Below the pieces are notes generated by a model. That model saw only the letters and a program-made list of their open reading frames with translations, searched no databases and was not told the DNA's origin. Shown piece after piece: positions 19,480-52,251 of a DNA stretch of 64,000 nucleotides. The DNA is from Alphaproteobacteria bacterium (GTDB lineage Bacteria; Planctomycetota; Phycisphaerae; UBA1845). A program made the translations under genes and the position numbers. Within the stretch, counting starts at the first letter, position 1. Each line of letters starts with the position of its first letter. The stretch spans positions 310,001 through 374,000 of the forward strand of contig JANQQE010000011.1 of the NCBI GenBank assembly GCA_028285105.1, given 5' to 3'.

Positions 19480-19528
19480 AAAGCCACCGGTCGGACTCGA
19501 ACCGACGACCTGCGGTTTACAAAACCGC
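19480..19528 (-). repeat. attL: 49-bp copy of the tRNA-Thr 3' part
   Basis: Identical base for base to 52177-52225. On the minus strand it covers the 3' strand of the anticodon arm with its loop, the T-arm and the acceptor 3' strand, but not the D-arm or the 5' acceptor strand. It is therefore a displaced fragment and not a gene. The native terminator lies just outside it. Confidence 0.93.
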
Positions 19529-30400: not shown

Positions 30401-30624
30401 GGAACACGCGGACACGCCGTGAGTTATACGAGGCCCGCAAGGCATACAACCAGACTGCCAAGACGTTGCAACCTCGGATCTTAAGTCGCCTGGATGAACT
30501 GGGTGATGCGGGCGCGGTGGCTCGCGAGATCTCAGAGGATACAACACTCACCGTTCGCGAGCGACAGATCGCAGTGCATTTGTTAATTCGCCGGGGGTTG
30601 TCCGGGGCAAACAACGCCCCCTAG
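27409..30624 (+). CDS. Transmembrane Ser/Thr protein kinase with WD40 sensor domain
   Basis: 1071 aa. A short N-terminal helical region (EIFEAACDMPAEERAAFLAR) precedes a Hanks-type kinase domain (about 89-370): VALKMVRPD supplies the Lys, HRDLKPAN the catalytic loop (H212, D214), DFGVARF the metal Asp (D236), and MSYMSPEQVAGG the P+1 region. The glycine loop reads CHGGMG, with Cys in place of the first Gly. One membrane helix follows (about 390-414, GGFVATLAALMIGLVGATSF), then an extracytoplasmic half that starts with ELRGWEWRYL and carries WD40 repeats (SPDGRYMFTAGYDRRLLCID, DGTLLASGGQDKVLRFWD, RLISGSEDRTIRLWDLEEM). Probably senses or binds something outside and signals to the sigma factor encoded just upstream (inference). 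Confidence 0.93.
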   Translation: MNPSERHRRTMEIFEAACDMPAEERAAFLARECPDDTDLRNEISTMLAQDVEPNPALLAVEQGKGAEVLAADMRMDSANTALPERVGRYRIIRLICHGGMGTVYEAEQENPQRPVALKMVRPDLADRRILKRLQREAQVLGLLQHAGIAQVFEAGFTEIAGVRQPYIAMEYVEGMPIDAYAEAQGLSDRARMELVARVCDAVDYAHERSVLHRDLKPANIFVTETVDGAGQPKVLDFGVARFINVDHRTMTEHTEVGQLVGTMSYMSPEQVAGGTEDLDRRSDIYALGVVLHELLVGRVPLDIREHTLPEAARIIRDEEPSRLGLINPRLRGDVETIVSKALEKDPQRRYLTAAEMAEDIRRFLGDRPITARPASTFYQIRKFARRNRALVGGFVATLAALMIGLVGATSFALREHRANQLAQEAGAASKRAAYYASLSAASAALREDDITTAQRHLASAPVELRGWEWRYLTASLDESIGTAPLVSSVQLTADDIARGRMQIWFSEDDHGEGVIYMARLLYEWVAVVDAHAMDTLNPISNWFEGATDCAIGIQLGNQVLLKTDGGVELRSALTGERINADHPSWQSAVIWFTNVVPSPPDSMPAIDHAAVSWENPVKGAVSDDGQWLFTSSIESAKLVSLSTPHRVIELPPHPEDASDVAFSPDGRYMFTAGYDRRLLCIDIADEGRLVWVQEDAHLDAILAVAVSRDGTLLASGGQDKVLRFWDARTGASLGASIGHREPILTIGFPPDGERVITASAKRIKAWELPDAPNMSRIYKSDWFLSHSMVSWEDSLLVAAGMRGEITLWDPISYLPIASARVPREHHHWIFARIISDDWKLKIDYHLSDRVTLNLLNGDTVLRPLTDSLLTPLTPTHNSAFEAADRLGVKIDGAALYLPQRNWLVISKRRVISIFNVDSGEELAQLHGHTLPVHCLGVMPNEERLISGSEDRTIRLWDLEEMEEVIDLRGHLDRVRYIALTPDGATIFTVADDYTLRAWNTRTRRELYEARKAYNQTAKTLQPRILSRLDELGDAGAVAREISEDTTLTVRERQIAVHLLIRRGLSGANNAP

Positions 30625-31081
30625 GCGGCGGGCTCGTTCACTGCTAACAGTCGCCGCAGTCGTTTTCCGGGGTTTGTTGGGTCATTTCTTATTTTCTTGA
30701 GATTCTGATTCGGTCTATGTGGTCGGTTTGCGTTTCCTGGTGTGAGCGGTGAGTCCACGGCATGGGCCGCTGGATGCGACGCCGCCGCTGACCTTTCGAG
30801 CAGGAAGGTTGCTTCGACGGACGCTTTAGCCGGATTGGAACCCGATCCTGTCATATACCCGACTATTTCGAGTTGCGACCGTCGGGGTAAAAATGATCCC
30901 ACCGTCATAATTACCACGCAGATTTCGGAGTTATTCACATTTTCTTTGTGGGTTGATTTCGTCGTTCTCGTGTCTGTGAGTGCGTGCGGCGACTGCCAAC
31001 CGTGGAACCTGTGGGATGAAATGCCGCCAAGCACAATTGCCTGCGCGTAACGGGCGTTCACCGCAAAATAGGAGACCAGAA
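30625..31081. other. Intergenic region
   Basis: About 457 bases between the kinase gene and the next giant gene. Open frames exist on both strands but have no signal, domain or codon pattern I trust. AGGAG at 31070-31074 serves the TTG start at 31082. No clear promoter. Confidence 0.45.
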
Positions 31082-33691: not shown

Positions 33692-33981
33692 GTATTTCAT
33701 TTCGATGTGGGGTGGAGCCATTTCGGACACAACTAATCGCCGGCGAGTGGGAATAACGCCGCTGCGTGAGGTCACATCACGTTTGTAGTGAGTTTTTGTA
33801 GGCGCCGTAAGGCTCTCGTGCGTGTTCGCAGTGAACACGCAACGCATGCCTCGACCGCCGATTTTTTTTGAGAATTCAGTTCGGCACTCGCCTGCTTCCT
33901 GCGTTTACCGGGCGTACGCAGTTGCCCTTTGGTACGGCGCCAGGGTCCAGCTGTGCGATCGCAAAATGGAAGGACGAAGAG
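33692..33981 (+). other. Leader region of the 1924-aa protein gene, with hairpin
   Basis: No gene seen. Bases 33820-33840 form a perfect 8-bp stem (GCGTGTTC / GAACACGC) with a five-base loop; no T-run follows it, so it may be a leader structure or an operator. AAGGA precedes the start at 33982. Confidence 0.4.
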
Positions 33982-36900
33982 ATGCAACCCAGACCCAAAC
34001 GAATTGAGCAGACGAATGACCCCATTGGGGGCAAAATGCGCCCGCTACATCGCTTGACCCGACGACTCGGCCTGGCGCATGCCATCGGGCTAACGCTCGT
34101 AACGGCCCATGTCAGCGAGGGACAAACGCAGACTTTTACAAGCACGTCACCCATTACGATCAACGCGGTTGAGGGCACGCAGTATCCTCCGTTCCAGAAT
34201 GGCTACCACCGCAATATCTCAACGCCCTACCCGAGCACGGTTGAGGTGTCTGGCGTTAGTGGGCCTTATCGCGTGGAAGTTAAACTTAGTGGCTTTTCGC
34301 ACACACGACCGCACATGGCCAATATTCTCCTCGTTCCACCGAGCCACGTGCAGGTCGACAGCGTGGTGCTGATGAGTTGGATCGGCGGAGCCAACCCAGC
34401 GACCAATCTCGATCTGACCTTCGCCCATGGTGAGCCGCCGATTGCGTTTCCGCTGCAGAGCGGCCGGTTCAGTCCCGCCTTGGGGCTGAGTACACCGCAG
34501 ATGCTTCCGCCGGCGCCATTCTTTAACCCCTCGTACGCCCAAGACCTGCTCCACCTGGCTGGTGTGCAGCCGAATGGAACCTGGAGCCTCTACGTGATGC
34601 CGGCCGGTTTCTTTGGATTCACAAATAACGCGAGCGGTTACATCGCCGAGTGGAGCCTGCATTTCGTACCCGATTCGGATGGCGACGGCGTCTTCGACAC
34701 GAACGACAACTGTCCGAACATCGCGAATGCCGATCAACAGAACTGGGACATTGCCGGAATGGACAGTCACGGCGACGCATGTGACAACTGTCCGTTCGCC
34801 TTAAATGAAGATCAGGCCGACAGTGACGGCGACGGCGTTGGAGATGCGTGCGATGTTTGTCCGTCTGTTGTTGATCCAGACCAAGCCAATTCGGATAGCG
34901 ACTTGATTGGCGACGCCTGCGACAACTGTCAGTTTGTTCGCAACCCTGACCAACTCAATTCAGACGGCGATCCACTTGGCGATGCCTGCGACAACTGCCC
35001 ACTGCTTACTAGCTTGGACCAAGCGGACTGGGACGCTGATGGCGTCGGCGACCTGTGCGACAACTGCCCATTCGTGCAGAATCCCTCCCAGAACGACACC
35101 GATGGCGATGGCGCCGGAGACGCATGCGATTCGTGCGCCGACGTGAACAACATCACCAATGTAACGCGGAGTACGACACACCCATCGATTCAGGACGCGA
35201 TCGACGCCGCCCAGGCGAACGACGTGATTCAGCTTGGTGCGTGCACGATTTATGAGGACAACATCAACCTTGGGAATCTCAATCTTCAGATTCGCGGAGC
35301 CGGTGTGGACCAAACATTCATTGACGGTGGATCGAACGACAATGACGAGGTGATGTGGATCACGTCGCCAAGTATTACGTCCGAAGCCGTGATCTCCGAT
35401 CTGACAATTCGGAATGATGGCGGTGGCGGCATGGTGACCATCACGAGTTCGCCAACAGTTGAGCGGGTGCGGTTTATGAACATCTCTGGCGGTCACGCCT
35501 TGAGCTTGGCCGGTCCCTCTAAAGTGGAGAAATGCATTTTCACGGGGACCTCCGGCCCTTACGAGACCGTGACCGTCGACGTTGGCAACGGCAAGCCAAC
35601 GCTGCTGCAAAACCTTTTCTACAACAACTCGACGAACGTCGCGCTTACGATCAGCGGCGGTGGTACGTGCAATTTGACAAATAACACCATCACGTCCGGA
35701 TCGCAGGGCGCGCTGGAAGTTGGGCCGGGAACGACTTTGGAGCTATGGAACACGATCGTGACCGGATCGATGTCGATTTTTGGGGGCGTGCTGCAGTCGG
35801 TCCACAGTCTTCATGTCGGCTATATGAACGGTAGCACGGACAGTATCGACGGCACTCCCACATTTGTGAATCCCTCCAGCGGCGATTACCGACTGGCTGA
35901 GGGGTCTCTGGGCATCGACGCCGCGAACTCATTCTCCTTCGCTATTGCCGGAGGAGATACTGTGAACTTCGTTGATGTGTTAGGTCAACCGAGATCGCAC
36001 GATGACCTGGGAATTGTAAATGTACAGAGCGCTCTCGACATGGGCGCAATCGAGTTTCAGGGACTCACCGACGCGGACGGTGACGGGGTGGGCGACGCGG
36101 TGGATCAGTGTCCGGGCCAGGACGACACGCTTGACGACGACTTTGACGGTATTCCCAACGATTGCGACAATTGTCCCGGGTTGGCGAGCGTGGACTTGAC
36201 CGACAGCGACGGCGACGGCATTGGCGACGTTTGTGACAACTGCCCGGAATTCGTTAGCAACGACTCCACCGATACGGACGGCGACGGCGTCGGGGACGCA
36301 TGTGACAACTGCCCGTCGTTCGCCAGCGCGAATCAAGCCGACAGCGACGGCGACGGCATTGGCGACGTCTGTGACAACTGCCCGGGATTCGTTAGCAACG
36401 ACTCCACCGATTCGGACGGCGACGGCGTCGGGGACGCATGTGACAACTGCCCATCGCTCGCCAGCGCGAATCAAGCCGACAGCGACGGCGACGGCATCGG
36501 CGATGTCTGCGACAACTGCCCGGCATTCGCCAGTGGCGACGTCAGCGATGCCGATCTAGACGGCGTTGGCGACGTTTGCGACGTTTGCCCACTGGTAACC
36601 AATCCAGCTCAGGCAGACGGTGATGGCGACGGGTTTGGCGATGTGTGCGACAACTGCCCGGAGGCCGCCAACGCGGACCAGGCCGACGAAGACGGCGACA
36701 CTGTCGGCAACGCGTGTGACGCCTGCCCAAGTGTGAACATCTTCAACCTGAATAAGGATACGATGCACGCCACAATTCAGGAAGCGCTAAACGAAGCGCG
36801 CACGAACGATTTAATTATCCTGGGGGCTTGTACGTTCTACGAGGATAACATCATAGTACCGGCCGGCATTGAGGTGACAGTCACTGGCCAGGGTGCTGAC

Positions 36901-39756
36901 CGCACATTTCTGGATGGGGGAACCGATGACAACGACAATGTCTTCCGTTTCGAGGACACCAACCACTCCAGTAACATGATCATTGCTGGGATGACGATTT
37001 CCAACGGCAGCGCCCCCGCGATCTACCTGGAGAACGCGCGACCTCGGCTATTTAGCCTAAAGTTCGAGAATTGCTCCGGCGGCGCGCTCGACTTGGACGA
37101 CGCGGTTTTCGTCGAACATTGCGAGTTCACCGGCAACCACACGTCCTTTCAAAGTGTGTTGATCCGCGAGGGCAATCCAACTTTTCTTGGTTGCTTGTTC
37201 CACGGAAACGATAACCAAAACATTGTGAATGACACCGGGGCGGCGAAATTCATCAACTGCACGATCGTAGATCTTGATCGCAACGCCTTAGATCTCCGAC
37301 CCAATTCGCAGGTCGAGTTGTACAACACCATTGTGCGCGGCTGGATTTCCCTCCCCAATATTGTCACCGCCAGCAAGAGCATCTATTGGGGAGCGACCGG
37401 AGACAATATCGACGGCAACGTGACGTTCGTTGATTTCGACAATGGTGATCTGGAGCTCGCCGAAGGGTCAATTGGAATCGATGCGGCAGATTACGATGTC
37501 TACGCTGCAGCCGGTGGACGGGATTTCGATTTGAAGGGGCTAACCCGCCCATTTGACGATCTTGGCATCGCCGATACCGGTACCGGTGCGCAAACGACGC
37601 TGGATATCGGTGCCGTCGAGTTTCAGGGGCTCACCGATTCGGACAACGACGGTGTTGGTGATGCGGTCGACGCTTGCCCCGGCTTCGACGACAACAGCGA
37701 CTCCGATGGCGACGGGATTCCCAACGGTTGCGATGACCCGCCTCCGGTCGTAACAGTGCCGACGGATCTTAATGTCGGCGATCAGTATCGCCTGTTCTTC
37801 GTGACCATCAACAGAATCGATGCGCAATCGGCCGACATCAATACCTACAACACTTTCGCGGCGCAGGAAGTCGCCAACGAGCCCGAATTGGTGGCGTTGA
37901 ACACGACCTGGAAAGCAGTGGCGTCAACCCCTACGACTTCGGCGCTCGACAATACGGGTATGGATTTCATGCCAGTCGGTTCAACCGGTGTGCCCATTTA
38001 TCGATTGGATGGTGTACGGATGGTCAACAACTACGACCACTTCTGGTTTGAGCAGGGCCACTGGCTCGTCGACGCGAATGTCGCCCCCGATCTTTCAACG
38101 ATGCAGGATCGTGTTTGGACTGGCTCCAACGTCAATGGCTCGCCGCGCGACCCTCTGGGTGGTCCGACGGATCCACGGTCAGGTCTCGCCCATCGCACCG
38201 GTCAGCTTGCGATCACCGGGGATACATGGCCGAACACGCAACTCTGGCCACTCTACGTAGTCAGCGACGTGCTAACCGTTCCTTGCACAGGCGTGACCGA
38301 CACCGATGGCGACGGCGTCAACGATTCGTGCGACAATTGCCCAACGATCGCCAACGCCAATCAAGCCGACGGCGACGCGGACGGCGCCGGTGACGCGTGC
38401 GACAATTGCCAGGCGACCGCCAACGCCGGTCAGGCGGACGCGGACGGTGATGGGTTTGGCGATGTGTGCGACGCTTGCAGTACCGGCGACGACACCGACG
38501 ATACCGACAGCGACCTGGTCCCTGATGCGTGCGACGTTTGTCCAGGCTTCAACGACAACTTTGACGTCGACGGCGACGGCATTCCCAACGACTGTGACAA
38601 TTGCTTGTACCGTTCCAATCCTGATCAGGCGGATGCCGACAGCAACGGATTTGGGGACGTCTGCGACATTTGTCCTGGTGTCGAAGACGGGCCCGACACC
38701 GATGGCGACGGTGTACCGGACGGATGTGACCTTTGCGCCAGTGGCGATGATTCAGTTGACTGCGACAGTAACGGAATTCCAGATGCCTGCGATCTCGCGA
38801 ATCCAGGTCGATTCGAATCGTTTGATGCGCCTGGCGCGAACTACACGCTCAACGGCACGGCGGTCGCGGATGGCGGCTCGATCCGATTGGCCGAGGCGGT
38901 CATGTGGCAACTTGGCACGGTTATCTTTGAACCGGTGTCAGCAGCTCCATTGAACGCCTTCGAGGTCGAGTTCGACTTCCAGATGGGCGGCGGAAATGGC
39001 GCCAATGGGCTGAGTTTCGTCGTGCTCGACGCCGACGTCAGCGGTGGCGAAGCCCTGTTCGATGAAACTGGCGGCGCGCAACCATTGGCGATCAGCCTGG
39101 ATACCTGGGGCACGACCGCGGCCGACGGTAACCATGTTTACATCTACACCTACGGGGCGTTGCAGGCTGAGTTTCTACTGTCCGCTCCGTTGGACGACGG
39201 CGCGTGGCAGCGTGTGCGGTTCGCGTATGACCGCGGTGTCGCGTCGATGTGGATGTATGACGCGGGAGGCGCTGAGACGACGGTGTTCAGCGATCTGGCA
39301 ATCGCGGGTTATTCGCCAGTTCGTGCACGCTACGGCTTCGGGTCCCGGACCGGAGCTTTCTCGAATGAACACCGCGTCGACAACGTCCGATTCCGAGTCA
39401 CTGACGTGACGAACGATTGCAACAGCAATGGAGTTCCCGATTCGTGCGATCCGGATGTTGACGGTGACGGCGCGCCCGACGCATGTGATAACTGCTTGAC
39501 GATTACCAACGCCGATCAAATGGACACGGACACCGATGGTCTAGGCGATGCCTGCGATCCGTGTGCCGGTGGTTCGGCCAGCGGCGATTCCGACGGGGAT
39601 GGGGACGTCAACGCAAACGACTACACGAAGTTCGCCGCCTGCATGACAGGCCCAGGCAATGGAATGGGCGCCGGCTGCGAATGCTTCGACTTTGACGACG
39701 ACGGTGACAACGACTTGCTCGACTTCGCCGCCCTACAGTCGATGCTCGCTGGTTAA
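33982..39756 (+). CDS. Giant secreted protein: P-like domain, TSP3 arrays, two beta-helices, lectin-like domain, dockerin-like tail
   Basis: 1924 aa. An extended signal region (GLAHAIGLTLVTAHVSEGQ, cut near residue 55) leads into an N-terminal domain like the proprotein-convertase P domain (about 60-230, ending NGTWSLYVM ... IAEWSLHFV). Then: TSP3 repeats (233-390, D-x-D-x-D-G-x2-DxCDNCP), beta-helix module 1 (390-690), a long TSP3 array (697-917), beta-helix module 2 (920-1210), an unidentified domain of about 180 residues (1255-1430, LNVGDQYRLFFVTINRID), TSP3 (1440-1605), an L-type lectin-like domain (1607-1810, SIRLAEAVMWQLGTVIFE, FSNEHRVDNVRFRV), TSP3 and a dockerin-like end. The number of acidic loops implies heavy calcium binding. 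The ATG at 33982 has AAGGA upstream. Likely a cell-surface adhesin or structural protein. Confidence 0.88.
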   Translation: MQPRPKRIEQTNDPIGGKMRPLHRLTRRLGLAHAIGLTLVTAHVSEGQTQTFTSTSPITINAVEGTQYPPFQNGYHRNISTPYPSTVEVSGVSGPYRVEVKLSGFSHTRPHMANILLVPPSHVQVDSVVLMSWIGGANPATNLDLTFAHGEPPIAFPLQSGRFSPALGLSTPQMLPPAPFFNPSYAQDLLHLAGVQPNGTWSLYVMPAGFFGFTNNASGYIAEWSLHFVPDSDGDGVFDTNDNCPNIANADQQNWDIAGMDSHGDACDNCPFALNEDQADSDGDGVGDACDVCPSVVDPDQANSDSDLIGDACDNCQFVRNPDQLNSDGDPLGDACDNCPLLTSLDQADWDADGVGDLCDNCPFVQNPSQNDTDGDGAGDACDSCADVNNITNVTRSTTHPSIQDAIDAAQANDVIQLGACTIYEDNINLGNLNLQIRGAGVDQTFIDGGSNDNDEVMWITSPSITSEAVISDLTIRNDGGGGMVTITSSPTVERVRFMNISGGHALSLAGPSKVEKCIFTGTSGPYETVTVDVGNGKPTLLQNLFYNNSTNVALTISGGGTCNLTNNTITSGSQGALEVGPGTTLELWNTIVTGSMSIFGGVLQSVHSLHVGYMNGSTDSIDGTPTFVNPSSGDYRLAEGSLGIDAANSFSFAIAGGDTVNFVDVLGQPRSHDDLGIVNVQSALDMGAIEFQGLTDADGDGVGDAVDQCPGQDDTLDDDFDGIPNDCDNCPGLASVDLTDSDGDGIGDVCDNCPEFVSNDSTDTDGDGVGDACDNCPSFASANQADSDGDGIGDVCDNCPGFVSNDSTDSDGDGVGDACDNCPSLASANQADSDGDGIGDVCDNCPAFASGDVSDADLDGVGDVCDVCPLVTNPAQADGDGDGFGDVCDNCPEAANADQADEDGDTVGNACDACPSVNIFNLNKDTMHATIQEALNEARTNDLIILGACTFYEDNIIVPAGIEVTVTGQGADRTFLDGGTDDNDNVFRFEDTNHSSNMIIAGMTISNGSAPAIYLENARPRLFSLKFENCSGGALDLDDAVFVEHCEFTGNHTSFQSVLIREGNPTFLGCLFHGNDNQNIVNDTGAAKFINCTIVDLDRNALDLRPNSQVELYNTIVRGWISLPNIVTASKSIYWGATGDNIDGNVTFVDFDNGDLELAEGSIGIDAADYDVYAAAGGRDFDLKGLTRPFDDLGIADTGTGAQTTLDIGAVEFQGLTDSDNDGVGDAVDACPGFDDNSDSDGDGIPNGCDDPPPVVTVPTDLNVGDQYRLFFVTINRIDAQSADINTYNTFAAQEVANEPELVALNTTWKAVASTPTTSALDNTGMDFMPVGSTGVPIYRLDGVRMVNNYDHFWFEQGHWLVDANVAPDLSTMQDRVWTGSNVNGSPRDPLGGPTDPRSGLAHRTGQLAITGDTWPNTQLWPLYVVSDVLTVPCTGVTDTDGDGVNDSCDNCPTIANANQADGDADGAGDACDNCQATANAGQADADGDGFGDVCDACSTGDDTDDTDSDLVPDACDVCPGFNDNFDVDGDGIPNDCDNCLYRSNPDQADADSNGFGDVCDICPGVEDGPDTDGDGVPDGCDLCASGDDSVDCDSNGIPDACDLANPGRFESFDAPGANYTLNGTAVADGGSIRLAEAVMWQLGTVIFEPVSAAPLNAFEVEFDFQMGGGNGANGLSFVVLDADVSGGEALFDETGGAQPLAISLDTWGTTAADGNHVYIYTYGALQAEFLLSAPLDDGAWQRVRFAYDRGVASMWMYDAGGAETTVFSDLAIAGYSPVRARYGFGSRTGAFSNEHRVDNVRFRVTDVTNDCNSNGVPDSCDPDVDGDGAPDACDNCLTITNADQMDTDTDGLGDACDPCAGGSASGDSDGDGDVNANDYTKFAACMTGPGNGMGAGCECFDFDDDGDNDLLDFAALQSMLAG
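36202..36531 (+). repeat. 138-bp tandem repeat in the TSP3 array
   Basis: Units begin at 36202, 36340 and 36478 (period exactly 138 bp, or 46 codons, two TSP3 loops each). The first two are full and near identical at the DNA level; the third diverges after about 54 bases. The close DNA match means recent expansion by unequal recombination or slippage. Confidence 0.9.
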
Positions 39757-43216: not shown

Positions 43217-43930
43217 TCAGCGGTACCGACGAGGAAACAAAGCTATGCCAAGCGCTGTGACGCCTAGCAGCGCCAATGACGATGGTTCAGGAATAATGAA
43301 TGCGTCAAACTGCAACTCCCCCATACCGACCCTGTTGCCTCCCGCATTGGGTCCGCTTGTGAACCGGTGATTGTCCGTGATCGTCACTTGCACGTACCGT
43401 GCGGTGAGTGTGACGGGCAACGAAAAGTCCTGACGCGTTGACGCTCCAAAGTCCTGGCTCATGGCGAGATTAAATGCGGGGTTGTCCGGGATCGTCGTCC
43501 CGAAACCGCCCAATCCATCCGATTCCGTCGCAAACAACATGTTAATGTCCTTTGCTGAATTGCCTTCACCATTAAACTGAGAGCGGCCCGTATATGCCCA
43601 GTAGCTAAATCCGCCGATTTCGAAATCTTCACCAAAGTCAAAAGTAAGGACCGGAATCGGCAGCGTGCCAGCGAGGACATCAGCATAGTAGTCACCTGTA
43701 GACGCTGACGCGGTGGCCCAGGAATTGTTGTCCGGCCAAGCCCCGTGTGTAACAAGATCTCCACCGGGACCGTTTGGATCACCTGACAGGCCAGAACCGT
43801 CCGCAATGAGCGAAGCGGGCTTAAAGTCGGCGGTATTACTCGTCACCGCGGCGGTTATCAGGTCGGCCACAGCGCGATCAGCGCAAATTGAGAAACCAAT
43901 CAAGAAAGTTGCTAAGCGAACCCACTTCAT
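43217..43930 (-). CDS. PEP-CTERM sorting-signal protein with discoidin-like domain
   Basis: 237 aa. Signal peptide MKWVRLATFLIGFSICADRA. The middle resembles a discoidin/F5-8C beta-sandwich (FEIGGFSYWAYTGR, LTARYVQVTITDN). The C-terminus is a PEP-CTERM signal: PEPSSLALLGVTALGIALF followed by RRYR. Such proteins are cut by an exosortase and placed on the cell surface or in exopolysaccharide. No exosortase gene is in the window, so the host chromosome would have to supply it. The start is firm: TAGGAGG seven bases before the ATG at 43930. The 288 bases to the divergent sigma gene should hold its promoter. Confidence 0.9.
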   Translation of the reverse strand: MKWVRLATFLIGFSICADRAVADLITAAVTSNTADFKPASLIADGSGLSGDPNGPGGDLVTHGAWPDNNSWATASASTGDYYADVLAGTLPIPVLTFDFGEDFEIGGFSYWAYTGRSQFNGEGNSAKDINMLFATESDGLGGFGTTIPDNPAFNLAMSQDFGASTRQDFSLPVTLTARYVQVTITDNHRFTSGPNAGGNRVGMGELQFDAFIIPEPSSLALLGVTALGIALFPRRYR

Positions 43931-44201
43931 GTCGAAACCTCCTACGTGAGAATTGAATTGCCAGAGTAAGCCAAATGCCCCGTTGCCAGGACTTTGAGAG
44001 ACGCGTCTTCCATAAACTCTGCGCGGGAACGATCGCACGCGCCATATACATAAGCACAGGCGACCCCACTCATCTCCATACACACCAAAAACACGAACAA
44101 CCCGAACGGGAAAACGAAGTGCATTCACACGAAACTGGACGTCCAATTGCCGATTTGCACAAATGATTGCCACGAATAGAGTTATGATCATTAGGCCTGA
44201 G

Positions 44202-44210
44202 TGATATAAT
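44202..44210 (+). promoter_or_regulatory. Extended -10 promoter element of the second sigma factor gene
   Basis: TGATATAAT: TGn directly before TATAAT, and exactly eight bases before the ATG at 44219, as at 26787. It implies leaderless or nearly leaderless transcription. A TTATGA 17 bases upstream could be a weak -35. Confidence 0.6.
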
Positions 44211-44218
44211 GACATGGC

Positions 44219-44818
44219 ATGGACCAAATGGATGACAGTCTCCGAGGCGACCCGATGGGCGGGAATGCGACAGAACTTCTTGTTCGAATGGGCGCAGGCG
44301 ATCAGGCGGCTGCGGGCGAACTCCTCCCGCTGGTGTACGAACAACTTCGGGAGATGGCGGGTAACTTCATGCGCAATCAGCCCGCTGGTCACACCTTGCA
44401 GCCGACCGCATTGGTGAACGAGGCATATCTCAAGCTGATCGCCAGCAGCGGAAACTGGAAAGACCGGGCGCACTTTTGCGCCGTCACGGCGACGGCGATG
44501 CGACAGATTCTACAGAACCATGCCCGCGGAAAACGTGCCGCCAAACGCAGTGGGCAACGCGTCAACATAACCATCGACCGATTCGACGGTCCCGAGGGGG
44601 CTGAAGTGTTGGACTTGGTGGCATTGGAGGATGCCCTGACCAAGCTCGCCGAACTGAATATGCGGCAGGCCCGTTTGGTCGAATTGCGTTTCTTTGGCGG
44701 TATGACCCACGATGAAATCGCCCATGTTCTCGGCGTCACCACGCGCACCGTGGAGAAGGACTGGAGGCGCGTACGGGCATGGCTGAGTCGCGAGCTGAGC
44801 GAGGAGAGTCGCCAATGA
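44219..44818 (+). CDS. ECF-type RNA polymerase sigma factor (TIGR02999-like), second copy
   Basis: 199 aa and clearly paralogous to the sigma factor at 26804. Shared blocks: LLPLVYEQLREMAGNF, TLQPTALVNEAYLKLIAS, HFCAVTATAMRQILQNHARG, and region 4 RQARLVELRFFGG with IAHVLGVTTRTVEKDWRRVR. It would direct RNA polymerase to a small set of genes. The stop overlaps the kinase ATG (ATGA). Whether the two sigma factors read the same promoters is unknown; the recognition helices differ at several positions (LELSSRTVEKEW against LGVTTRTVEKDW). An alternative start at 44228 is possible. Confidence 0.93.
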   Translation: MDQMDDSLRGDPMGGNATELLVRMGAGDQAAAGELLPLVYEQLREMAGNFMRNQPAGHTLQPTALVNEAYLKLIASSGNWKDRAHFCAVTATAMRQILQNHARGKRAAKRSGQRVNITIDRFDGPEGAEVLDLVALEDALTKLAELNMRQARLVELRFFGGMTHDEIAHVLGVTTRTVEKDWRRVRAWLSRELSEESRQ

Positions 44819-47691
44819 CCACATCTTCGCGCCATGAACAGGTCATGGATCTCTTCGACGCGGTTTGCGATCTTGCACCGGAAGCGCGCGAAGCCGCACT
44901 CGACGAAGCCTGTGCAGACGACGCTGATCTCCGTCGCGAAGTTGAGTCGCTGATTGCCCACGACCTTAGCGCGAACAAGGCCATTGAGGCGGCAGAGATT
45001 GGCGGTGGCGCGCGAATGCTGGCCGGCGCTGTTGCGGGGCAATCCGGTGAGGATGTTCCGAAAAGGATCGGTCAATACTCGATACTGCGGGTTATTGGTC
45101 AGGGTGGGATGGGCGTCGTTTACGAGGCTCAGCAGGAATCTCCGCGCCGGCGCGTTGCTTTGAAGGTCATCCGCGCTGGACTCGCATCGGAGCACATGAA
45201 GCGCCGGTTTCGGCTCGAAGCGGAAGTGCTTGGCCGGTTGCAACATCCGGGAATCGCGCACGTATACGATGCTGGGATCGCCGAAACGCCTGGCGGTCCC
45301 AAACCGTACTTTGCGATGGAGCTTGTGGATGGCATCTCCTTGGAGAAGTTCGTTCAAAATCGCAAACTGAATCAACGGCAGATTCTGATCTTGATGGCGC
45401 GGTTGTGCGACGCGGTCAACCATGCCCACCAAAAGGGCGTTATCCACCGAGATTTGAAGTCGGAAAATGTTCTTGTCGTCGAGCAACGAAGCACCTTCGA
45501 ATCGACAGACAGCGGTACGCGCCTTGATGAGGGAAGCGGTCAACCGAAAGTTCTCGACTTTGGGATCGCCCGACTCACTGATGCAGATGTTCACGGCGCC
45601 ACCCTGCAGACTCAGGCGGGCCAAATTGTTGGCACCCTTGCGTTCATGAGTCCCGAGCAACTCTCGGGCGACCCTTCCCAGATCGATACCCGGTGCGATG
45701 TGTATGCCCTGGGGGTTATTCTCTACCGTTTGCTCTCCGGGCAGATGCCGCACGACATCTCGGGTAAGCCGATCGCGGAAGCGGCCCGAATCATCCGTGA
45801 ATTCGAACCCGCTCGACTCGCAGCAATCGAGCGCTCGCTGGCTGGCGACATTGATACCATTGTGACCAAGGCGATGGAAAAGGAACCCGAGCGACGGTAT
45901 GACTCGGCAGCAGCGCTGGCTGAAGACCTCCGGCGCTATCTGGCGAACGAGCCGATCCTTGCTCATCCGCCCAGCACATTCTACCAAGTCCGCAAGTTCG
46001 CCCGCCGAAACGTTGGACTGGTAACGGGTTTGGCGGCGACGTTCGTAGCGCTGGTCATCGGGCTGTCCGGAACGGCGTACTACCTCACCGAAGCAGTCGA
46101 GCAGCGAAACGCGGCTGAAGCAACCAATACCGAGTTGAACTCTGTCATCACCTTCCAATCCAACCTGCTTGAGAAACTGAGTGCTCGACGAGTTGGCGAA
46201 AAGCTGCTTGTCAATCTGCGAAGTGAATTCGAACAAGGGTTCGCCGAATTGGACCCCAACGAGCAAGTTAGAAGTGAGGCCATCAATAACTTCGATGAAA
46301 TGCTAGGCCATGTGAACGAAGTCAACCTGGCCCGCGAGCTGCTTGGCGACTTGATCGCTGAAAGGGCTTTGGAACAGATCGAAAACAAGTACACAAAAAA
46401 CCCAATCACCGAAGCACGTCTGCGTGCAGCGGTCGCCGGGATCTATCGTGGAATCGGCATGTATCCTGAGGCACTCGAGCAGATACAACAGGCCACGGCA
46501 CTTACTGATCACTTGGCAAATTCCAACAGCGGTGTGAGGCGCAGCGTGCTGACGGATTTGGCCCAACTGCAGGCCCGAGCCGGCGACTATGTGGCAGCAG
46601 AAACCACGTTCCGTGAAGTCCTTTCTGCCGCGCAAGAGTACTCACGCGACGGGTCCTATCGTTTTTTCTCAACCCTTAACGGGCTGGGACGGTGCTTACA
46701 CAAGCAGGGGCGACTTGAAGAGGCTGTGGTCTATCACGAGCGGGCCTTGAATCATGCGACAGAGCATGGTGGTCCCGAAGTGAGCGCCGTGATGACCGCG
46801 AGGAGCAATCTCGCATTGTTGCAAGCCGAGCGTGGTGATTATGATGCGGCACTACAACAACTCCTGAAGGTTCTCGAATTCAGGCGGGAAACACGAGGCG
46901 AGTCAAATGCGGACACGCTGATCGCATTGAACAATGTCATGACGATGCTGTTCAAGATTGGTCGGTTCGTCGAGGCGGAGGAATATGCAAGACAAACCGT
47001 GGATGCGGCGGCAGCAACACGTGGCGACGATCACCCACGCACGCTGTCATTCAAGAACAATTTAGGGCGGATCGTTCTCCATCTCGGGCGTGCTGGCGAG
47101 GCGGAGCAACTCTTTCGGCAGGCATACGAGTCGGTCAAGGTGAACTTGTCACCGGCGAACGAACTCAGGCAAAAATGTACCAGCAATCTGATTGATGCAC
47201 TGTTGGCCCTGCGTCAACCCGAAGAGGCGGAAGCGATTGGCCGCGAGTTGATCGAAGTCCGGCGCAAACTCGAACCGCCGGCGCCCGGGCTTGTTGCCCA
47301 AACTTTGGAGCAGTTGGGTCACGCATATTATATACAGTCGAATTACGCGGGCGCCCGCGATGCGTGGAAGGAATGCGTTGATCTGCGCTCAGGCATCGAC
47401 CCGAACCACTGGCTAACCAATCGCGCCCGCAGCGAATTGGGAGCGGCCCTTACCGCACAGGAGCGTTTCGAAGAAGCGGAGTCGCTCCTCCTTATGAGCT
47501 ACAACGCCCTCGAAAGGCAAGCAGACGAGGTTCCCATCGTCGCGGGAGCAGGATGTCTCGACGATGCCCGAGCACGCATCGTTGCCTTGTACAAAGCGTG
47601 GGGCAAGTCCGATGAGGCCAATAACTGGGCTGTAAGACACATCCAGCTCGCACCTGCATCGCCCGCGAGTTCCACCAGCAGCAGCAACTAA
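44815..47691 (+). CDS. Transmembrane Ser/Thr protein kinase with TPR sensor domain
   Basis: 958 aa. The N-terminal helical region (VMDLFDAVCDLAPEAREAAL) parallels that of the first kinase. Kinase domain about 85-380: intact glycine loop GQGGMG (from residue 95), VALKVIRAG, HRDLKSEN (H211, D213), DFGIARL (D248), LAFMSPEQLSGD. The KSEN form of the catalytic loop differs slightly from the common KPAN. A single membrane helix (about 400-424, LVTGLAATFVALVIGLSGTA) is followed by about 500 residues of tetratricopeptide repeats (YPEALEQIQQATALTDHL, YDAALQQLLKVLEFRRETRG, EEAEAIGRELIEVRRK). Only the outer half differs in kind from the WD40 kinase at 27409, so the module seems to have been duplicated and given a new sensor. 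Confidence 0.94.
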   Translation: MTTSSRHEQVMDLFDAVCDLAPEAREAALDEACADDADLRREVESLIAHDLSANKAIEAAEIGGGARMLAGAVAGQSGEDVPKRIGQYSILRVIGQGGMGVVYEAQQESPRRRVALKVIRAGLASEHMKRRFRLEAEVLGRLQHPGIAHVYDAGIAETPGGPKPYFAMELVDGISLEKFVQNRKLNQRQILILMARLCDAVNHAHQKGVIHRDLKSENVLVVEQRSTFESTDSGTRLDEGSGQPKVLDFGIARLTDADVHGATLQTQAGQIVGTLAFMSPEQLSGDPSQIDTRCDVYALGVILYRLLSGQMPHDISGKPIAEAARIIREFEPARLAAIERSLAGDIDTIVTKAMEKEPERRYDSAAALAEDLRRYLANEPILAHPPSTFYQVRKFARRNVGLVTGLAATFVALVIGLSGTAYYLTEAVEQRNAAEATNTELNSVITFQSNLLEKLSARRVGEKLLVNLRSEFEQGFAELDPNEQVRSEAINNFDEMLGHVNEVNLARELLGDLIAERALEQIENKYTKNPITEARLRAAVAGIYRGIGMYPEALEQIQQATALTDHLANSNSGVRRSVLTDLAQLQARAGDYVAAETTFREVLSAAQEYSRDGSYRFFSTLNGLGRCLHKQGRLEEAVVYHERALNHATEHGGPEVSAVMTARSNLALLQAERGDYDAALQQLLKVLEFRRETRGESNADTLIALNNVMTMLFKIGRFVEAEEYARQTVDAAAATRGDDHPRTLSFKNNLGRIVLHLGRAGEAEQLFRQAYESVKVNLSPANELRQKCTSNLIDALLALRQPEEAEAIGRELIEVRRKLEPPAPGLVAQTLEQLGHAYYIQSNYAGARDAWKECVDLRSGIDPNHWLTNRARSELGAALTAQERFEEAESLLLMSYNALERQADEVPIVAGAGCLDDARARIVALYKAWGKSDEANNWAVRHIQLAPASPASSTSSSN

Positions 47692-48137: not shown

Positions 48138-48335
48138 ATGTTCGAAATGGGGACGGCATCCAAGGTCGTGCGGAAATCGAGAGGTGCACAGGACCGCAGA
48201 ATAGTAGAGCGACGCGCCTTGGCTCAAAAACTGTACAAGGAAGGCCTGACAAATCAGCAGATCGCAATTCAGCTTGGTGTCAGCGAATCAACAGTCTCGC
48301 GCGATTTAAAGGAACAGCTAGAGACGGCCCGTTGA
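48138..48335 (+). CDS. Small helix-turn-helix DNA-binding protein
   Basis: About 65 aa from an ATG at 48138. The C-terminal 40 residues (ALAQKLYKEGLTNQQIAIQL followed by GVSESTVSRDLKEQL) form a clear helix-turn-helix like that of transposase/resolvase or sigma region 4 HTHs. The N-terminus is basic. The start is uncertain, as no good ribosome site is seen and the frame is open to 47976. Just upstream of the excisionase-like gene, it is probably a regulator of the island's recombination genes. Confidence 0.65.
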   Translation: MFEMGTASKVVRKSRGAQDRRIVERRALAQKLYKEGLTNQQIAIQLGVSESTVSRDLKEQLETAR

Positions 48336-48410
48336 ACCGCGTGTAATGATTGCAATTCATTCAATTCTTGCAATGCAAATCCTGCAAGCACCGTGTCGTA
48401 AACTTCTTGC

Positions 48411-48674
48411 ATGAATACGCAAGACACAGTCAGTCACGACCGCGGTGCCGCGCCAGTTCGCGGCAATGACCCGAATGAATCCAAAAGCGAACCAATTGCC
48501 GTTTCCGCCGCCGAAGCGGCTCGGCTGATTGGCATTGGGACGCGTACACTTTGGACGCTCACGAATCGCCGAAAGATACCGCATGTCCGAATTGGGCGAC
48601 GGGTGGTTTACCCGCTGGCGGACCTTCGTCGATGGATGTCGAATCAGGCGGGGGATACACATTCATGCCCCTAA
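48411..48674 (+). CDS. Excisionase-like / HTH_17 DNA-binding protein
   Basis: 87 aa. The C-terminal half is a winged-helix of the MerR/excisionase type: AVSAAEAARLIGIGTRTLWT, then a short turn, then KIPHVRIGRRVVYPLADLRR. These proteins bind and bend DNA next to att sites and push tyrosine recombinases toward excision. The N-terminal 30 residues are low in complexity. The gene overlaps the next one by 10 bases. Its place in the recombinase module fits a recombination directionality factor. Confidence 0.8.
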   Translation: MNTQDTVSHDRGAAPVRGNDPNESKSEPIAVSAAEAARLIGIGTRTLWTLTNRRKIPHVRIGRRVVYPLADLRRWMSNQAGDTHSCP

Positions 48675-48982
48675 CCGCCAATGAAACAACTTGGGAGCAG
48701 GTCTCGCGAAATCGATGCTGTCCCATCTGCGAAAAGCCGGACTGGTGTACGATTGCATCCGACGGCACCGTTGCGGGCTGCATGCGTATCGAATCGCTGA
48801 AAAGGATGCGAAACGGCGGATGGCTTCATAATTTGGAAGACAGTCAATACCCAACAGTGCGGCGACGTTCGATTCAAATTCAGACTGCTCCAGCTAATAC
48901 ACGCTTCGATCGTCGCTTGTTCTTCCCAGCAAGGAGCGACTCTGGTTTCATCCTCCTCTCGGCATTGCCTCGCCAACCATGA
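48665..48982 (+). CDS. Primase-type zinc-finger protein
   Basis: 105 aa. The N-terminal half carries CCPICEKPDWCTIASDGTVA with C19, C22, C28 and C39 as candidate zinc ligands, then RIESLKRMRNGGWLHNL. This matches the zinc-finger part that opens primase/helicase proteins of phages and integrative elements. The C-terminal part is short and has no catalytic domain. The P-loop ATPase gene begins in the overlap (ATGA at 48979), so the two together look like a primase-helicase split over two genes. The start lies inside the excisionase-like gene. Confidence 0.7.
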   Translation: MPLTANETTWEQVSRNRCCPICEKPDWCTIASDGTVAGCMRIESLKRMRNGGWLHNLEDSQYPTVRRRSIQIQTAPANTRFDRRLFFPARSDSGFILLSALPRQP

Positions 48983-50178
48983 CCAACGGATGGTCGGCAG
49001 GTTCGAGGGAGGCTTGGTTGCGAGGCAGTCTGACTTCGCCCGACCCAGTGGATGTTTTCAAACGGCTTTGTGAAGGATTCGCGCGCTACCTTGAATTCCC
49101 ACGCGAACAAGCGACAGGCATCGGTGCAACGCTGGCACTTTGGTCTCTGTTCACTTATGTCTTCCGTGCGTGGCTATCCGTCCCTTACCTGTCGATCGGT
49201 GGTCCACTAAAAAGTGGGAAATCGACAGTGTTTCGCATTCTTGCACAAGTGGTTTTTCGTCCACTTCCGTCTTCGAATCTGACTGCTCCGTGCCTGTTCC
49301 GCACGTTGCACGAGCATGGCGGGACGATGCTCATGGATGAAGCTGAGCGGCCGTGTGAACGAACTCCGGAAGCAGCAGAACTGCGGTCGGTACTGCTGGC
49401 TGGCTATCAGGCCGACATGCCTGCACGTCGGCTCGAACCATGCGGTAACGGGTATCGTTCCATGGAGTTTGACGTATATGGCCCCAAGGCGTTCGCCGCA
49501 ATCTCGCGTTTACCGGAGACTTTGGCGTCTCGCAGTATTCGCATCCGAATGTTCAGAGCCGGGCCAGAATCTGAGAAGCCCCGCTACCGCATCGAGGACT
49601 ATTCTGAATTCTGGCGATCATTAAGAAACGACCTGCACGTACTCGCACTCGAACACGGAAACGTTTGGGCGGAATTGGCCCGACGATCGAACGTTGCCCC
49701 CAGCGAATTAGCAGCAAGAGACTACGAACTCTGGCAACCGCTACTTGCACTTGCAGGATGGATTGAGGAACACGGCGCACCGGACTTGCTCGAATTCACA
49801 CAGGATTTCGCAATCGCTCATACAGAACAAGAACGCGAAAGCACTCTACCGGACGCTGACGAGATGTTGCTTCGCATTCTGGCGGAGCACGTGATCGCTG
49901 GTACCCAAGGCACTTTGAAAGCGGGAGATGTCTTGAAACTGGCTAAATCGCAAGACTTGGAGACTTTTCGGCGGTGGTCGGCCAAAGGCGTTGCAGAAGT
50001 ATTCAAACGGTACGGGCTGTGTACCCACAAACGGCATGGACGAACAGGCAAGACCTATCAGCGCGTGAATCTCAGGCAGTTACGCCAAATTGAATCGACA
50101 TACGGATTCGATCTTGGATTGCCCAATGAAGATGTACCGCAAGTGCCGCAAGTGGAGTCTGCTAATGCGCAAACGTAA
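48979..50178 (+). CDS. P-loop ATPase/helicase-like protein of the mobile element
   Basis: 399 aa. Walker A is GGPLKSGKST (K81) and Walker B is TMLMDEAER (D120, E121). The layout (upstream helical segment, LYSIGG-like strand, then TPEAAELRSVLLAGYQ and MEFDVYGPKAFAAISRLPET) is like the DUF3631/DUF927-type ATPases found next to primases in plasmids, phages and islands. The C-terminal 100 residues look like a winged helix (KAGDVLKLAKSQDLETFRRW). Probably acts in replication of the excised element. Translationally coupled to the zinc-finger gene. Confidence 0.75.
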   Translation: MTNGWSAGSREAWLRGSLTSPDPVDVFKRLCEGFARYLEFPREQATGIGATLALWSLFTYVFRAWLSVPYLSIGGPLKSGKSTVFRILAQVVFRPLPSSNLTAPCLFRTLHEHGGTMLMDEAERPCERTPEAAELRSVLLAGYQADMPARRLEPCGNGYRSMEFDVYGPKAFAAISRLPETLASRSIRIRMFRAGPESEKPRYRIEDYSEFWRSLRNDLHVLALEHGNVWAELARRSNVAPSELAARDYELWQPLLALAGWIEEHGAPDLLEFTQDFAIAHTEQERESTLPDADEMLLRILAEHVIAGTQGTLKAGDVLKLAKSQDLETFRRWSAKGVAEVFKRYGLCTHKRHGRTGKTYQRVNLRQLRQIESTYGFDLGLPNEDVPQVPQVESANAQT

Positions 50179-50255
50179 GGGATCATCGAAAACATTCCGT
50201 GTATCTAAATTGAGATGCTTGCGGTACGTGCGGTACATGTTTGGGGAGGTGGCCA

Positions 50256-50477
50256 GTGTTTAATGCGGTGACTTTCTTGGAAGACTTGTTTTTGCCCAAG
50301 GCGGACAGGGCGACTTCACCCTCAGACTTGTCCGAATATTGGCGAGAGATGTACGAGGAGCGCGCTGCAATTCGTGAATATTACGGCGGACAGGTACGCG
50401 AACATGCTGAGGCAGAAGCCCTCGCTGAAGTTATAGCGGCGATGAACCGCCAGAACCAAGAAAATTTAGAACAATGA
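50256..50477 (+). CDS. Small acidic helical protein
   Basis: 73 aa from a GTG at 50256, which has GGGGAGG at the right distance. The sequence (EYWREMYEERAAIREYYGGQ, AEAEALAEVIAAMNRQNQEN) is charged and almost wholly helical, perhaps a coiled coil. I do not recognise the family. It lies between the ATPase gene and the XRE-like regulator, so it is probably an accessory protein of the island. Confidence 0.55.
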   Translation: MFNAVTFLEDLFLPKADRATSPSDLSEYWREMYEERAAIREYYGGQVREHAEAEALAEVIAAMNRQNQENLEQ

Positions 50478-50484
50478 TTCGCCC

Positions 50485-50514
50485 AGATATCGATAATGTG
50501 ATATCTCGATATCG
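50485..50514. promoter_or_regulatory. Palindromic operator-like region before the XRE-like gene
   Basis: AGATATC and GATATCT form a perfect 7-bp inverted repeat with eight bases between, followed directly by the palindrome CGATATCG. All three share GATATC. It sits 28 bases before the start of the HTH gene and the recombinase, where an autoregulator would bind. Confidence 0.55.
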
Positions 50515-50541
50515 AAAGAACGATAACTTAGGAACTCAACC

Positions 50542-50745
50542 ATGTCCGATCTTGAAAAGCAACTGCGCGAAGCCGCTCAGAAATCCGGGCTGTCGATGCT
50601 GACAATCAGTAAGAGAACAGGTGTCCCGTATTCCGCGATTCACTCATTCCTTGCGAGCAAACGCGGAATGACACTGGCGACCGCAAGCAAAATCGCGACG
50701 CTTTTGGAAATTGAATTTCGATCCGCAGAGCGAAAGAAGGTTTAA
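50542..50745 (+). CDS. XRE-like HTH regulator
   Basis: 67 aa, essentially one helix-turn-helix domain: LREAAQKSGLSMLTISKRTG, VPYSAIHSFLASKRGMTLAT, ASKIATLLEIEF. It resembles Cro/C1-type repressors. AGGAAC lies before the ATG. The recombinase gene begins two bases after its stop, so it is cotranscribed with the gene whose activity it may limit, and a palindromic region lies just upstream. Confidence 0.85.
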   Translation: MSDLEKQLREAAQKSGLSMLTISKRTGVPYSAIHSFLASKRGMTLATASKIATLLEIEFRSAERKKV

Positions 50746-50747
50746 CG

Positions 50748-52163
50748 ATGGCGACGAAACGACGCTCAAAAGGGACCGGACGCCTGTTTAAGCGAACTGC
50801 GAAGGGTTGCTGGATTGCCCGCTGGTACGATCATACCTTCACTCGGCGCGAGCGATCGACAGGCACGACTGATCGCGCGACGGCTGAGCGCCTTCTGGCG
50901 AAGCACTTGGCCGACTCGGCATTGCGTCGCGATGGCGTAATAGACGCGCGGGCGGATCGATACGCGATCGAGAATCAAAAGCCCATTGGCGAGCACATTG
51001 ATGACTGGATCAAAGACCTAACGGCCAAAGGTGTCACAGCGAAACAAATAGCGACTGTGAAAGTACGGACCAATCGATTGATCGAGGCGTCGAACGTCGA
51101 GAGACTTGCCGATTTGACTGGCTCGCGCATTCAATCGGCGTTGGCCGATCTTCAAATGGGTGAAAACGCCCTATCGAATCAAACTGTTCAGCACCATTCC
51201 CGCGCAATCAGGCAGTTCAGTCGCTGGTTGCAAACCGACGGTCGGCTTCCTGATGATCCGCTCGTCAGCCTCAGAAAGTGCAAGTTTGGTGTCGACGCCG
51301 ATCGACGACGTGAACGGCGACCGCTTGAAGCAGATGAATTGCGTTGGCTTGTCCGTACGACCGAAACCGCAGGAACATGGCGAGGATTGTCGGGGATCGA
51401 TCGAGCGATGCTGTACCGAGTCGCAACCGGGACGGGGTTTCGTGCGTCTGAATTGCGAAGCCTCACACCGCTAAGCTTCAGATTGCAAGATGATCCGCCC
51501 TGTGTGGACCTACATGCTGGCTCATCGAAGCGGCGCAGCGAAGACGTTCAACCAATCCGTCGCGACTTGGCTGAATCACTAAGCCCTTGGATGCGAAACC
51601 GCAAAGCCGACAAACCGCTTTGGCCCGGTCGCTGGAACGAACGCGCTGCAATGATGCTTCGTCGCAATCTAAGGCTCGCGCGGGCCCGCTGGATCAAAGC
51701 ATCGCCCGACCACTCAGAACGTCGCATACGCAGCGAGAGTGATTTCTTGGCCATTGAGAACGCGAAGGGGCATGTCGTGGACTTCCACGCGCTACGCGGA
51801 ACCTTCGTCACGGCACTCATCCGAGGAGGTGCAACAGTCAAGGAAGCTCAGGAACTGGCCCGACACAGCGACCCCAAGCTGACCATGAACATCTACACAA
51901 AACTAGGGGCGCACGATCTGTCGGACGCTCTCGACGCCCTTCCAGACCTGTTCGACGATGAGCCCCAAGCCGAACGACTCCGCGCAACCGGGACATACGA
52001 TGAATCTGCGGAAACTATCTCGGACACCCCCCGCCCCAAGCCCCGCCTTACGGCGCGCGAATCAGTGCGATTGAGAACTACGCAAGGATCGAATCGTTTG
52101 GAAAGTGCGCAAGGTGTCACTCTAAGGAAACCCTTGCTACAAAGGGAAAAACGCTTGATTTGA
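50748..52163 (+). CDS. Tyrosine recombinase / integrase
   Basis: 471 aa. An N-terminal basic arm-binding region (FKRTAKGCWIARWYDHTF), a SAM-like core-binding domain (about 75-185), and the catalytic domain. The active-site set is complete: R232 (TGFRASELRS), K261 (SSKRRSED), H347 and R350 (FHALRGTF), H373 (ARHSDPKLTM) and Y383 (NIYTKLG). About 85 residues follow the nucleophile, a longer tail than usual, of unknown role. It would cut within the 49-bp tRNA-Thr sequence and insert or excise the island. The gene reads into attR and stops 15 bases from the tRNA. The intact catalytic residues suggest it is still active. Confidence 0.95.
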   Translation: MATKRRSKGTGRLFKRTAKGCWIARWYDHTFTRRERSTGTTDRATAERLLAKHLADSALRRDGVIDARADRYAIENQKPIGEHIDDWIKDLTAKGVTAKQIATVKVRTNRLIEASNVERLADLTGSRIQSALADLQMGENALSNQTVQHHSRAIRQFSRWLQTDGRLPDDPLVSLRKCKFGVDADRRRERRPLEADELRWLVRTTETAGTWRGLSGIDRAMLYRVATGTGFRASELRSLTPLSFRLQDDPPCVDLHAGSSKRRSEDVQPIRRDLAESLSPWMRNRKADKPLWPGRWNERAAMMLRRNLRLARARWIKASPDHSERRIRSESDFLAIENAKGHVVDFHALRGTFVTALIRGGATVKEAQELARHSDPKLTMNIYTKLGAHDLSDALDALPDLFDDEPQAERLRATGTYDESAETISDTPRPKPRLTARESVRLRTTQGSNRLESAQGVTLRKPLLQREKRLI

Positions 52164-52176: not shown

Positions 52177-52225
52177 AAAGCCACCGGTCGGACTCGAACC
52201 GACGACCTGCGGTTTACAAAACCGC
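52177..52225 (-). repeat. attR: 49-bp direct repeat inside tRNA-Thr
   Basis: Same sequence and orientation as 19480-19528. Here it forms the 3' part of an intact tRNA gene, so insertion restored the tRNA with an element-borne 3' end. Confidence 0.93.
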
Positions 52226-52251
52226 TGCTCTACCAACTGAGCTACGGCGGC
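52179..52251 (-). tRNA. tRNA-Thr (anticodon UGU)
   Basis: 73 nt. Acceptor GCCGCCG pairs with CGGTGGC (one G-U); D-arm GCTC/GAGC; anticodon stem GCGGT/ACCGC with loop TTTGTAA, giving anticodon TGT; T-arm GTCGG/CCGAC with loop TTCGAGT; discriminator T. CCA is not encoded. It is the integration target of the island. Confidence 0.96.

Follow-up and report, generated by a model that had tools for sequence, protein, structure and literature searches.

The gene cluster at 48138-52163 of a 64,000-nucleotide stretch of planctomycete DNA (the window; positions 310,001 to 374,000 of contig JANQQE010000011.1, assembly GCA_028285105.1) forms the integrase end of a mobile element of 32.7 kb that occupies a tRNA-Thr(TGT) gene of a Phycisphaerae-type planctomycete. 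We think it probable that this element belongs to a wider planctomycete class in which the open reading frame (ORF) of a tyrosine integrase continues in frame across attP, the attachment site of the free element, into a conserved two-helix tail that is detached upon integration, the window copy itself being probably decaying or misassembled. Our judgment is evenly balanced on a broader proposal, namely, that across Planctomycetota, in phages, satellites, and cargo islands alike, attP-spanning integrases register the free versus the integrated state through loss of the tail and thereby alter their own activity; they would then contain their own directionality switch and would parallel, in bacteria, the self-splitting integrases of archaea.

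The ends of the element are defined by a perfect 49-bp direct repeat that covers the 3' part of the tRNA gene, and the features that matter most for the argument lie at or beside its two copies:

19480-19528, + strand: attL, 49 bp identical to attR; an antisense copy of the 3' part of tRNA-Thr, scored by cmscan as a sub-threshold tRNA fragment (21.7 bits)
19427-19723, + strand: orphan ORF, delimited stop to stop, that leads out of attL and contains the conserved tail motif (19616-19720)
50748-52163, + strand: tyrosine integrase (PF00589, 5.5e-14; phrog_1, 5.4e-32), its frame lost near the 3' end
52177-52225, + strand: attR, the repeat match to attL
52179-52251, - strand: tRNA-Thr(TGT), the target gene (Rfam RF00005, 73 bits)

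Because the repeat pairs attR with 19480-19528, the element must reach back to 19480, and an end near 48 kb is ruled out. A whole-genome search returned exactly two perfect copies; a repeat of 49 perfect bp with no third perfect copy in the genome is not a product of chance. The window thus contains an integrase adjoining a tRNA and flanking direct repeats, as expected of a tRNA-targeting tyrosine-integrase element. An initial annotation of the cluster had placed its ORFs correctly and had missed the adjacent tRNA-Thr, the att repeat, and the extent back to 19480.

The tail is a conserved segment of about 34 residues, of the type DPELaavvaAWPtLPdaiRaGIvAMVrA, and forms the end of a small orphan ORF just inside attL in the window and in three compared genomes, G048, G051, and G097 (here G denotes genomes compared, G000 being the window's own, and L denotes loci fetched). 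Three tail ORFs that were scanned had no Pfam family above cut-off. When the genomes of Planctomycetota and the fetched loci were searched with a model of the tail, 43 of 60 related genomes gave a match at E<=0.01; at the stricter E<=1e-4, 63 of the 294 phylum genomes searched did so, and one weak match (E=2e-4) fell in a Chloroflexi locus. G000 has four more matches outside the window, on contigs C2, C28, C32, and C36, and therefore holds several such elements or relics.

To follow the integrase frame through att, 80 further tail loci were fetched and one script was run over 84 sequences containing 85 tails. Fifteen of the first 20 loci had been picked for a tail inside a long ORF and are therefore biased toward continuity; the 60 later loci were picked by tail score and interior direction, with contig-edge matches left out. 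A direct repeat was found for 27 of the 85 tails, the other 58 having none in the available DNA, often because the contig ends, and for 23 of these 27 an integrase is located at the other repeat copy (21 identified by the script, and G048 and G051 by reading). Of these 23 elements, 20 have an integrase ORF that crosses att without interruption and reaches the motif in the tail's frame with no intervening stop, so that integration must detach the tail in each of them; among the 60 loci not picked for long ORFs, the arrangement is continuous and in frame in 12 of 14. In these 20 elements, themselves chosen for continuity, the tail frame has no stop over 417-757 codons upstream of attR, whereas the 40 values for the other frames do not exceed 110. 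A test blind to the tail gave a congruent picture: an ORF of 423-566 codons runs into the tRNA in 13 of 16 loci that share the core genes described below, the three others being the window (64 codons), L060 (67 codons), and L058 (152 codons, where the distance to the tRNA is unusually short).

Could the agreement of frames be incidental, the tail being an independent small attL gene that is expressed in the integrated state and encodes, for example, an antitoxin-like or Xis-like peptide? The ATG that directly follows att in the window tail would suit such a gene, as would the ATG found between att and the motif in 3 of 21 tails (the 20 continuous ones plus L165) and the presence there of at least one ATG, GTG, or TTG in 13 of 21. 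The remaining 18 have no ATG in this interval, however, and 8 have none of the three usual start codons; the frames agree in 20 of 23 elements even though all three phases relative to the tRNA end are represented (in 10, 4, and 4 of the 18 elements with an opposite-strand tRNA), across ten isotypes; and integrase and tail are fused in one ORF at four loci, L195, L208, L108, and L111. We therefore regard an independent gene as very unlikely. A different objection is that a stop before att simply happens to be absent from integrase ORFs and that reading through att serves no purpose. Stop-free antisense tRNA sequence is common, and the att-encoded segment is predicted to be disordered, as would be expected under this objection; yet a conserved motif lies beyond att, and it is common to tail-bearing integrases with at least four kinds of catalytic-region motif, as distinguished by eye. 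Differences between 155 close tail pairs (84 of the 85 tails used) number 627, 423, and 1,537 at codon positions 1, 2, and 3, respectively, the pattern expected of a sequence constrained at the protein level. Functionless read-through consequently strikes us as highly improbable.

If integration detaches the tail, the free form should carry integrase, att, and tail as one uninterrupted ORF. Judging from the assembled contigs, such a form exists in two phage contigs and a bacterial contig. In both phage contigs, L195 and L208, which encode a terminase large subunit, integrase and tail make up a single unbroken ORF; in the bacterial locus L108, 48 bases that are 96% identical to tRNA-Lys lie between integrase and tail in one ORF, and the integrase is spread across two ORFs. 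Further viral scans contributed little (five loci in one, no relative in another, and four loci in a third, one of them the L195 contig). A structure prediction for the L195 protein (10 sequences, mean predicted local distance difference test score [pLDDT] of 69) has a confident core to about residue 417, disorder to about residue 535, and then the tail as a helical hairpin (block pLDDT of 59-78). The att-encoded residues fall in the disordered stretch, which may explain how one design could serve many tRNAs. The model also bears on the possibility that the tail marks the integrase for degradation or inhibition, in which case the tailless enzyme produced after integration would be the stable form. 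The repressor of mycobacteriophage BPs works in this manner, according to the sections of the source available (PMC4557955), but a short terminal tag is not what the planctomycete elements have: their tail is a conserved hairpin of helices, and its final residues differ from one element to the next. We consider a tag unlikely.

Several observations weigh against the reading that we favor. The window itself has the orphan tail but not a continuous in-frame ORF of integrase, att, and tail: the integrase ORF ends 13 bp short of att and lies one frame away from the window's own tail, and an ATG directly follows att, as noted above. A genome of the same genus, G004, has at the same tRNA-Thr an integrase with 71% DNA identity whose ORF enters att in exactly the frame used by the window tail, and the window integrase is one base shorter than this orthologue in the stretch concerned; the 3' end of the window gene thus probably reflects decay or an assembly error. 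Among the other elements, the integrase of L163 is only a fragment, and that of L165 is in frame, with a stop intervening between att and tail. A repeat without an integrase match is seen in L127, L184, and L186, the 16-bp repeat of L142 looks like chance, and those of L155 and L174 are just 16-17 bp long. The tail was present in only 4 of 51 IMG/VR loci that had been found with an integrase alignment. In the fused ORF of L195 the tRNA-like piece is below the Rfam threshold, and in that of L208 no tRNA piece is recognizable. No orthologous empty site for the window element was found: in G002 the right flank is shared and the tRNA site holds an integrase relic; G001 has, at a locus that may or may not be the equivalent one, a tRNA-Thr without a neighboring integrase match; the left-flank gene has many paralogues in same-genus genomes; and the 543-aa right-flank gene had no match in four of them. 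Finally, the free circle, its tailed protein, and the function of the tail are predicted rather than observed.

The size of the window element invites a further alternative, that the 32.7 kb are a composite of two tandem elements at one tRNA from which the middle att has been lost, with tail and integrase stemming from different elements. The element is far larger than 20 others of the class (4.6-20.1 kb), and close tail pairs occur elsewhere. The window nevertheless holds only two perfect att copies, one integrase, and one tail, and the tail frame fits that of the same-genus orthologue of the window integrase; a composite is accordingly, in our view, distinctly unlikely. The tail pairs themselves, at L125 (G033:C439) and L120 (G023:C110), lie close together, those of L125 beside the same tRNA-Met-like sequence, and could be tandem insertions or relics.

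We posit that attP lies antisense to the tRNA and that the free circle carries integrase and tail as one ORF. By recombination geometry, integration leaves the tail orphaned inside attL and supplies the integrase with a short new end from the tRNA and the host flank; only the free circle would make the tailed integrase. The tail could favor integration, or the assembly of the enzyme with a partner protein; losing it could help to hold the integrated state until an AlpA/Xis-type protein drives excision, upon which the AAA+ ATPase would replicate the circle. A role of the tail as a directionality switch is what we infer from this arrangement of genes. Control of integrase direction is usually ascribed to separate factors; if the proposal is true, a C-terminal module present only in the free element would let DNA configuration set the direction of recombination, for many integrases and at many tRNA genes. 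As a defined domain, the tail lends itself to simple deletion tests, and as an orphan it marks the far end of islands, which helps to delimit the poorly known mobile elements of planctomycetes.

Every ORF named in the initial annotation is present, on the + strand, in 48138-52163; those that precede the integrase are as follows:

48138-48335, + strand: helix-turn-helix (HTH) protein, start possibly at 47976 (HTH_23, 6.2e-9)
48411-48674, + strand: AlpA/excisionase-type HTH_17 protein (HTH_17, 1.5e-12; phrog_66 excisionase/regulator, 2.7e-11)
48551-48982, + strand: zinc-finger ORF (CPxC), start uncertain; no Pfam or PHROG family
48979-50178, + strand: AAA+ ATPase (P-loop), probable replicative helicase; its only match, DUF3631 at E=0.094, falls below cut-off; shorter at the N terminus than its relatives
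50241-50477, + strand: acidic protein; no Pfam family, kept at the same place in relatives
50542-50745, + strand: XRE-like regulator (HTH; HTH_3, 9.1e-5, just under its cut-off)

The conservation of these genes exceeds chance, as the ATPase is 42-56% identical to 20 relatives and the acidic ORF 51-70% identical in three relatives. Since the ATPases of relatives are longer at the N terminus, in the window that frame is closed upstream, and the stop of the zinc-finger ORF overlaps the ATPase start as ATGA, the two window ORFs represent either a two-gene version or a truncation. The ATPase has no PDB relative by sequence (only ABC-transporter fragments, E=0.015), and Foldseek with its structure model (mean pLDDT of 77) returned no match at E<=0.001. 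Structural realignment of the model brought out MCM-type AAA+ helicases, with Z up to 10.4, and on this modeled fold the protein is likely a replicative helicase. One of the aligned structures, 5dgk_B (Z 8.6), is Cch of the staphylococcal cassette chromosome SCCmec, an MCM-like AAA+ helicase of an integrative element, as the window ATPase probably is; with 11% identity in the alignment, the likeness is one of fold only. Identity with a known phage protein was rejected, the matches being distant (2 phage and 7 plasmid records, 10 distant viral loci).

Of 100 related genomes, 13 contain relatives of the ATPase, which are full-length or nearly so in five (the window's genome included), and relatives were also found in 26 genome contigs. 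The 22 closer contigs (41-56% identity, the query's own locus aside) are all labeled Planctomycetota except L058 (Actinomycetes), and the four distant ones are Chloroflexi or Actinomycetota. The core of AlpA-type HTH protein, helicase-like AAA+ ATPase, acidic protein, XRE regulator, integrase, and tRNA is found repeatedly in Planctomycetota, with tRNAs of many isotypes: 16 of 23 core loci, the window included, have a tRNA no more than 4.5 kb downstream (Phe, Glu x3, Met, Arg x3, Ser, Val x2, Gly x2, Cys, Pro, and Thr), and the other seven have none within that distance, a contig end falling within 2.3 kb in five. In the same-genus tRNA-Thr element of G004 (L248; G004:C308), which has the orthologous integrase, a 743-aa primase-polymerase-like protein (by eye) takes the place of the ATPase, and the replication module thus appears to be exchangeable. 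A 20-kb relative, L029 (G051:C10; 130049-138382), has a 2777-aa RHS/YD-repeat protein with a Hint-like end (by eye), with later partial RHS copies and a TerS-like gene close to it.

The initial annotation had also described the cluster as a compact recombination/replication module without transfer genes that recalls helper-dependent phage satellites. The first half of this description stands within the ORFs scanned: the HTH, excisionase-like, zinc-finger, P-loop ATPase, acidic, XRE-like, and integrase ORFs are real, and, just as that annotation had seen no relaxase, coupling protein, capsid, or terminase, Pfam detected none in 16 window ORFs (7 core and 9 larger cargo). The negative holds for these 16 ORFs, smaller ORFs being outside the scan and oriT not being searched for; an integrative and conjugative or integrative and mobilizable element was rejected on the absence of a relaxase among them. 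The second half is right in part, with regard to relatives, and is not supported for the window element itself. The core relative in G051 has a TerS-like gene (phrog_57, 3.6e-12), and a 12.6-kb tRNA-Ser element of the same integrase-tail class (L118:2597-15175; G053:C2) encodes a terminase large subunit, a head maturation protease, a DnaC-like loader, and an O-like initiator; from its gene content, this element looks like a capsid-forming phage satellite in a planctomycete.

A terS or other packaging or capsid gene is present in many, but not all, phage-inducible chromosomal islands (PICIs). PICIs also have an integrase, an AlpA-type regulator, and a replication gene, with terS in some, as far as described in the sections of the source available (PMC6092414), and the window is like them in having the former three, the replication role being assigned by fold resemblance only. 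In contrast to PICIs, no packaging gene was found in the window (16 ORFs, by Pfam), and the gene order differs. For the window element, the satellite interpretation is doubtful: it draws on the relatives just described and on the AlpA-type gene adjoining the replication gene, but the element spans 32.7 kb, of which about 27 kb are other genes, its integrase frame is disrupted, and the class holds phages and small elements alike. Gene families were tallied for 138 of the 154 ORFs of 20 complete elements other than the window (the 16 left out lie mostly opposite to integrase or tail), with ORFs of >1500 aa and integrases removed beforehand and the first 25 families listed per library. Replication dominates among the families listed (PHROG primase/helicase with 7 members, DnaB-like with 5, and polymerase/primase with 5), packaging families are few (head maturation protease and terminase small subunit; in Pfam, terminase large subunit and capsid, with one member each), and no relaxase family appears in the 25-family list of either library.

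The larger genes in the remainder of the element, nine of which were scanned with Pfam, are of diverse types:

20154-26486, + strand: 2110-aa protein with T9SS-associated galactose-binding-like domains (T9SS, type IX secretion system) and a weak dockerin match
26804-27412, + strand: extracytoplasmic function (ECF) sigma factor (PF07638, 2.6e-52)
27355-30624, + strand: Ser/Thr kinase with WD40 repeats (Pfam)
30980-33622, + strand: 880-aa protein with weak matches only (DUF5123, pectinesterase)
33868-39756, + strand: 1962-aa protein with thrombospondin type 3 repeats and a beta helix
40583-42943, - strand: protein with a legume-lectin-like domain (Pfam)
43217-44473, - strand: PEP-CTERM protein, start uncertain
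44219-44818, + strand: ECF sigma factor (PF07638, 1.3e-51)
44779-47691, + strand: Ser/Thr kinase with TPR repeats (Pfam)

Two pairs of ECF sigma factor and Ser/Thr kinase (26804-30624 and 44219-47691) thus stand beside very long secreted-type proteins, and the L162 element likewise has a kinase-like protein (phrog_2361). With respect to kinase cargo as a defense system, PADLOC was applied to other elements, not to the window. Immediately to the left of attL, outside the element, is an RND-efflux-like gene pair (14489-18970, named by eye), the second gene of which has numerous paralogues in same-genus genomes.

Our literature search, which did not reach the primary papers on Mx8 and Mx9 or the 2013 paper on BPs, found no description of the planctomycete arrangement; three known systems, seen through those sections of their sources that were available, come close to it. 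In Myxococcus phage Mx8, attP lies within the coding sequence of the tyrosine integrase, and integration gives int a new 3' end, much as the 3' end would be replaced in the planctomycete class; Mx8 is a single phage for which these sections describe no shared conserved orphan tail, whereas the planctomycete class comprises many integrases, ten tRNA isotypes, and phages as well as small elements (PMC6070905). In mycobacteriophage BPs, integration shortens the C terminus of a repressor encoded across attP; there the protein is a repressor and the lost part a proteolysis tag, as opposed to an integrase and a predicted helical hairpin (PMC4557955). The SSV-type, or suicidal, archaeal integrases have attP inside the integrase gene, which is split on integration; splitting parts the catalytic from the N-terminal portion, and the enzyme so divided is considered inactive, whereas in the planctomycete elements only a tail that follows an apparently intact catalytic domain is removed (PMC8371274). 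The PF00589 stretch lies wholly before att in the integrases of the window and L118, and these two and the L108 integrase match PF00589, not PF16795, the Pfam domain of the SSV type. As far as the available sections go, none of Mx8, the SSV type, and BPs unites a catalytic domain left intact, a conserved tail that can be detached, and occurrence in elements across a whole phylum. A 2021 review holds self-disrupting recombinases to be exclusively archaeal (PMC8371274, in the part available); set against that statement, the planctomycete arrangement would represent, like Mx8, a milder bacterial form of self-disruption.

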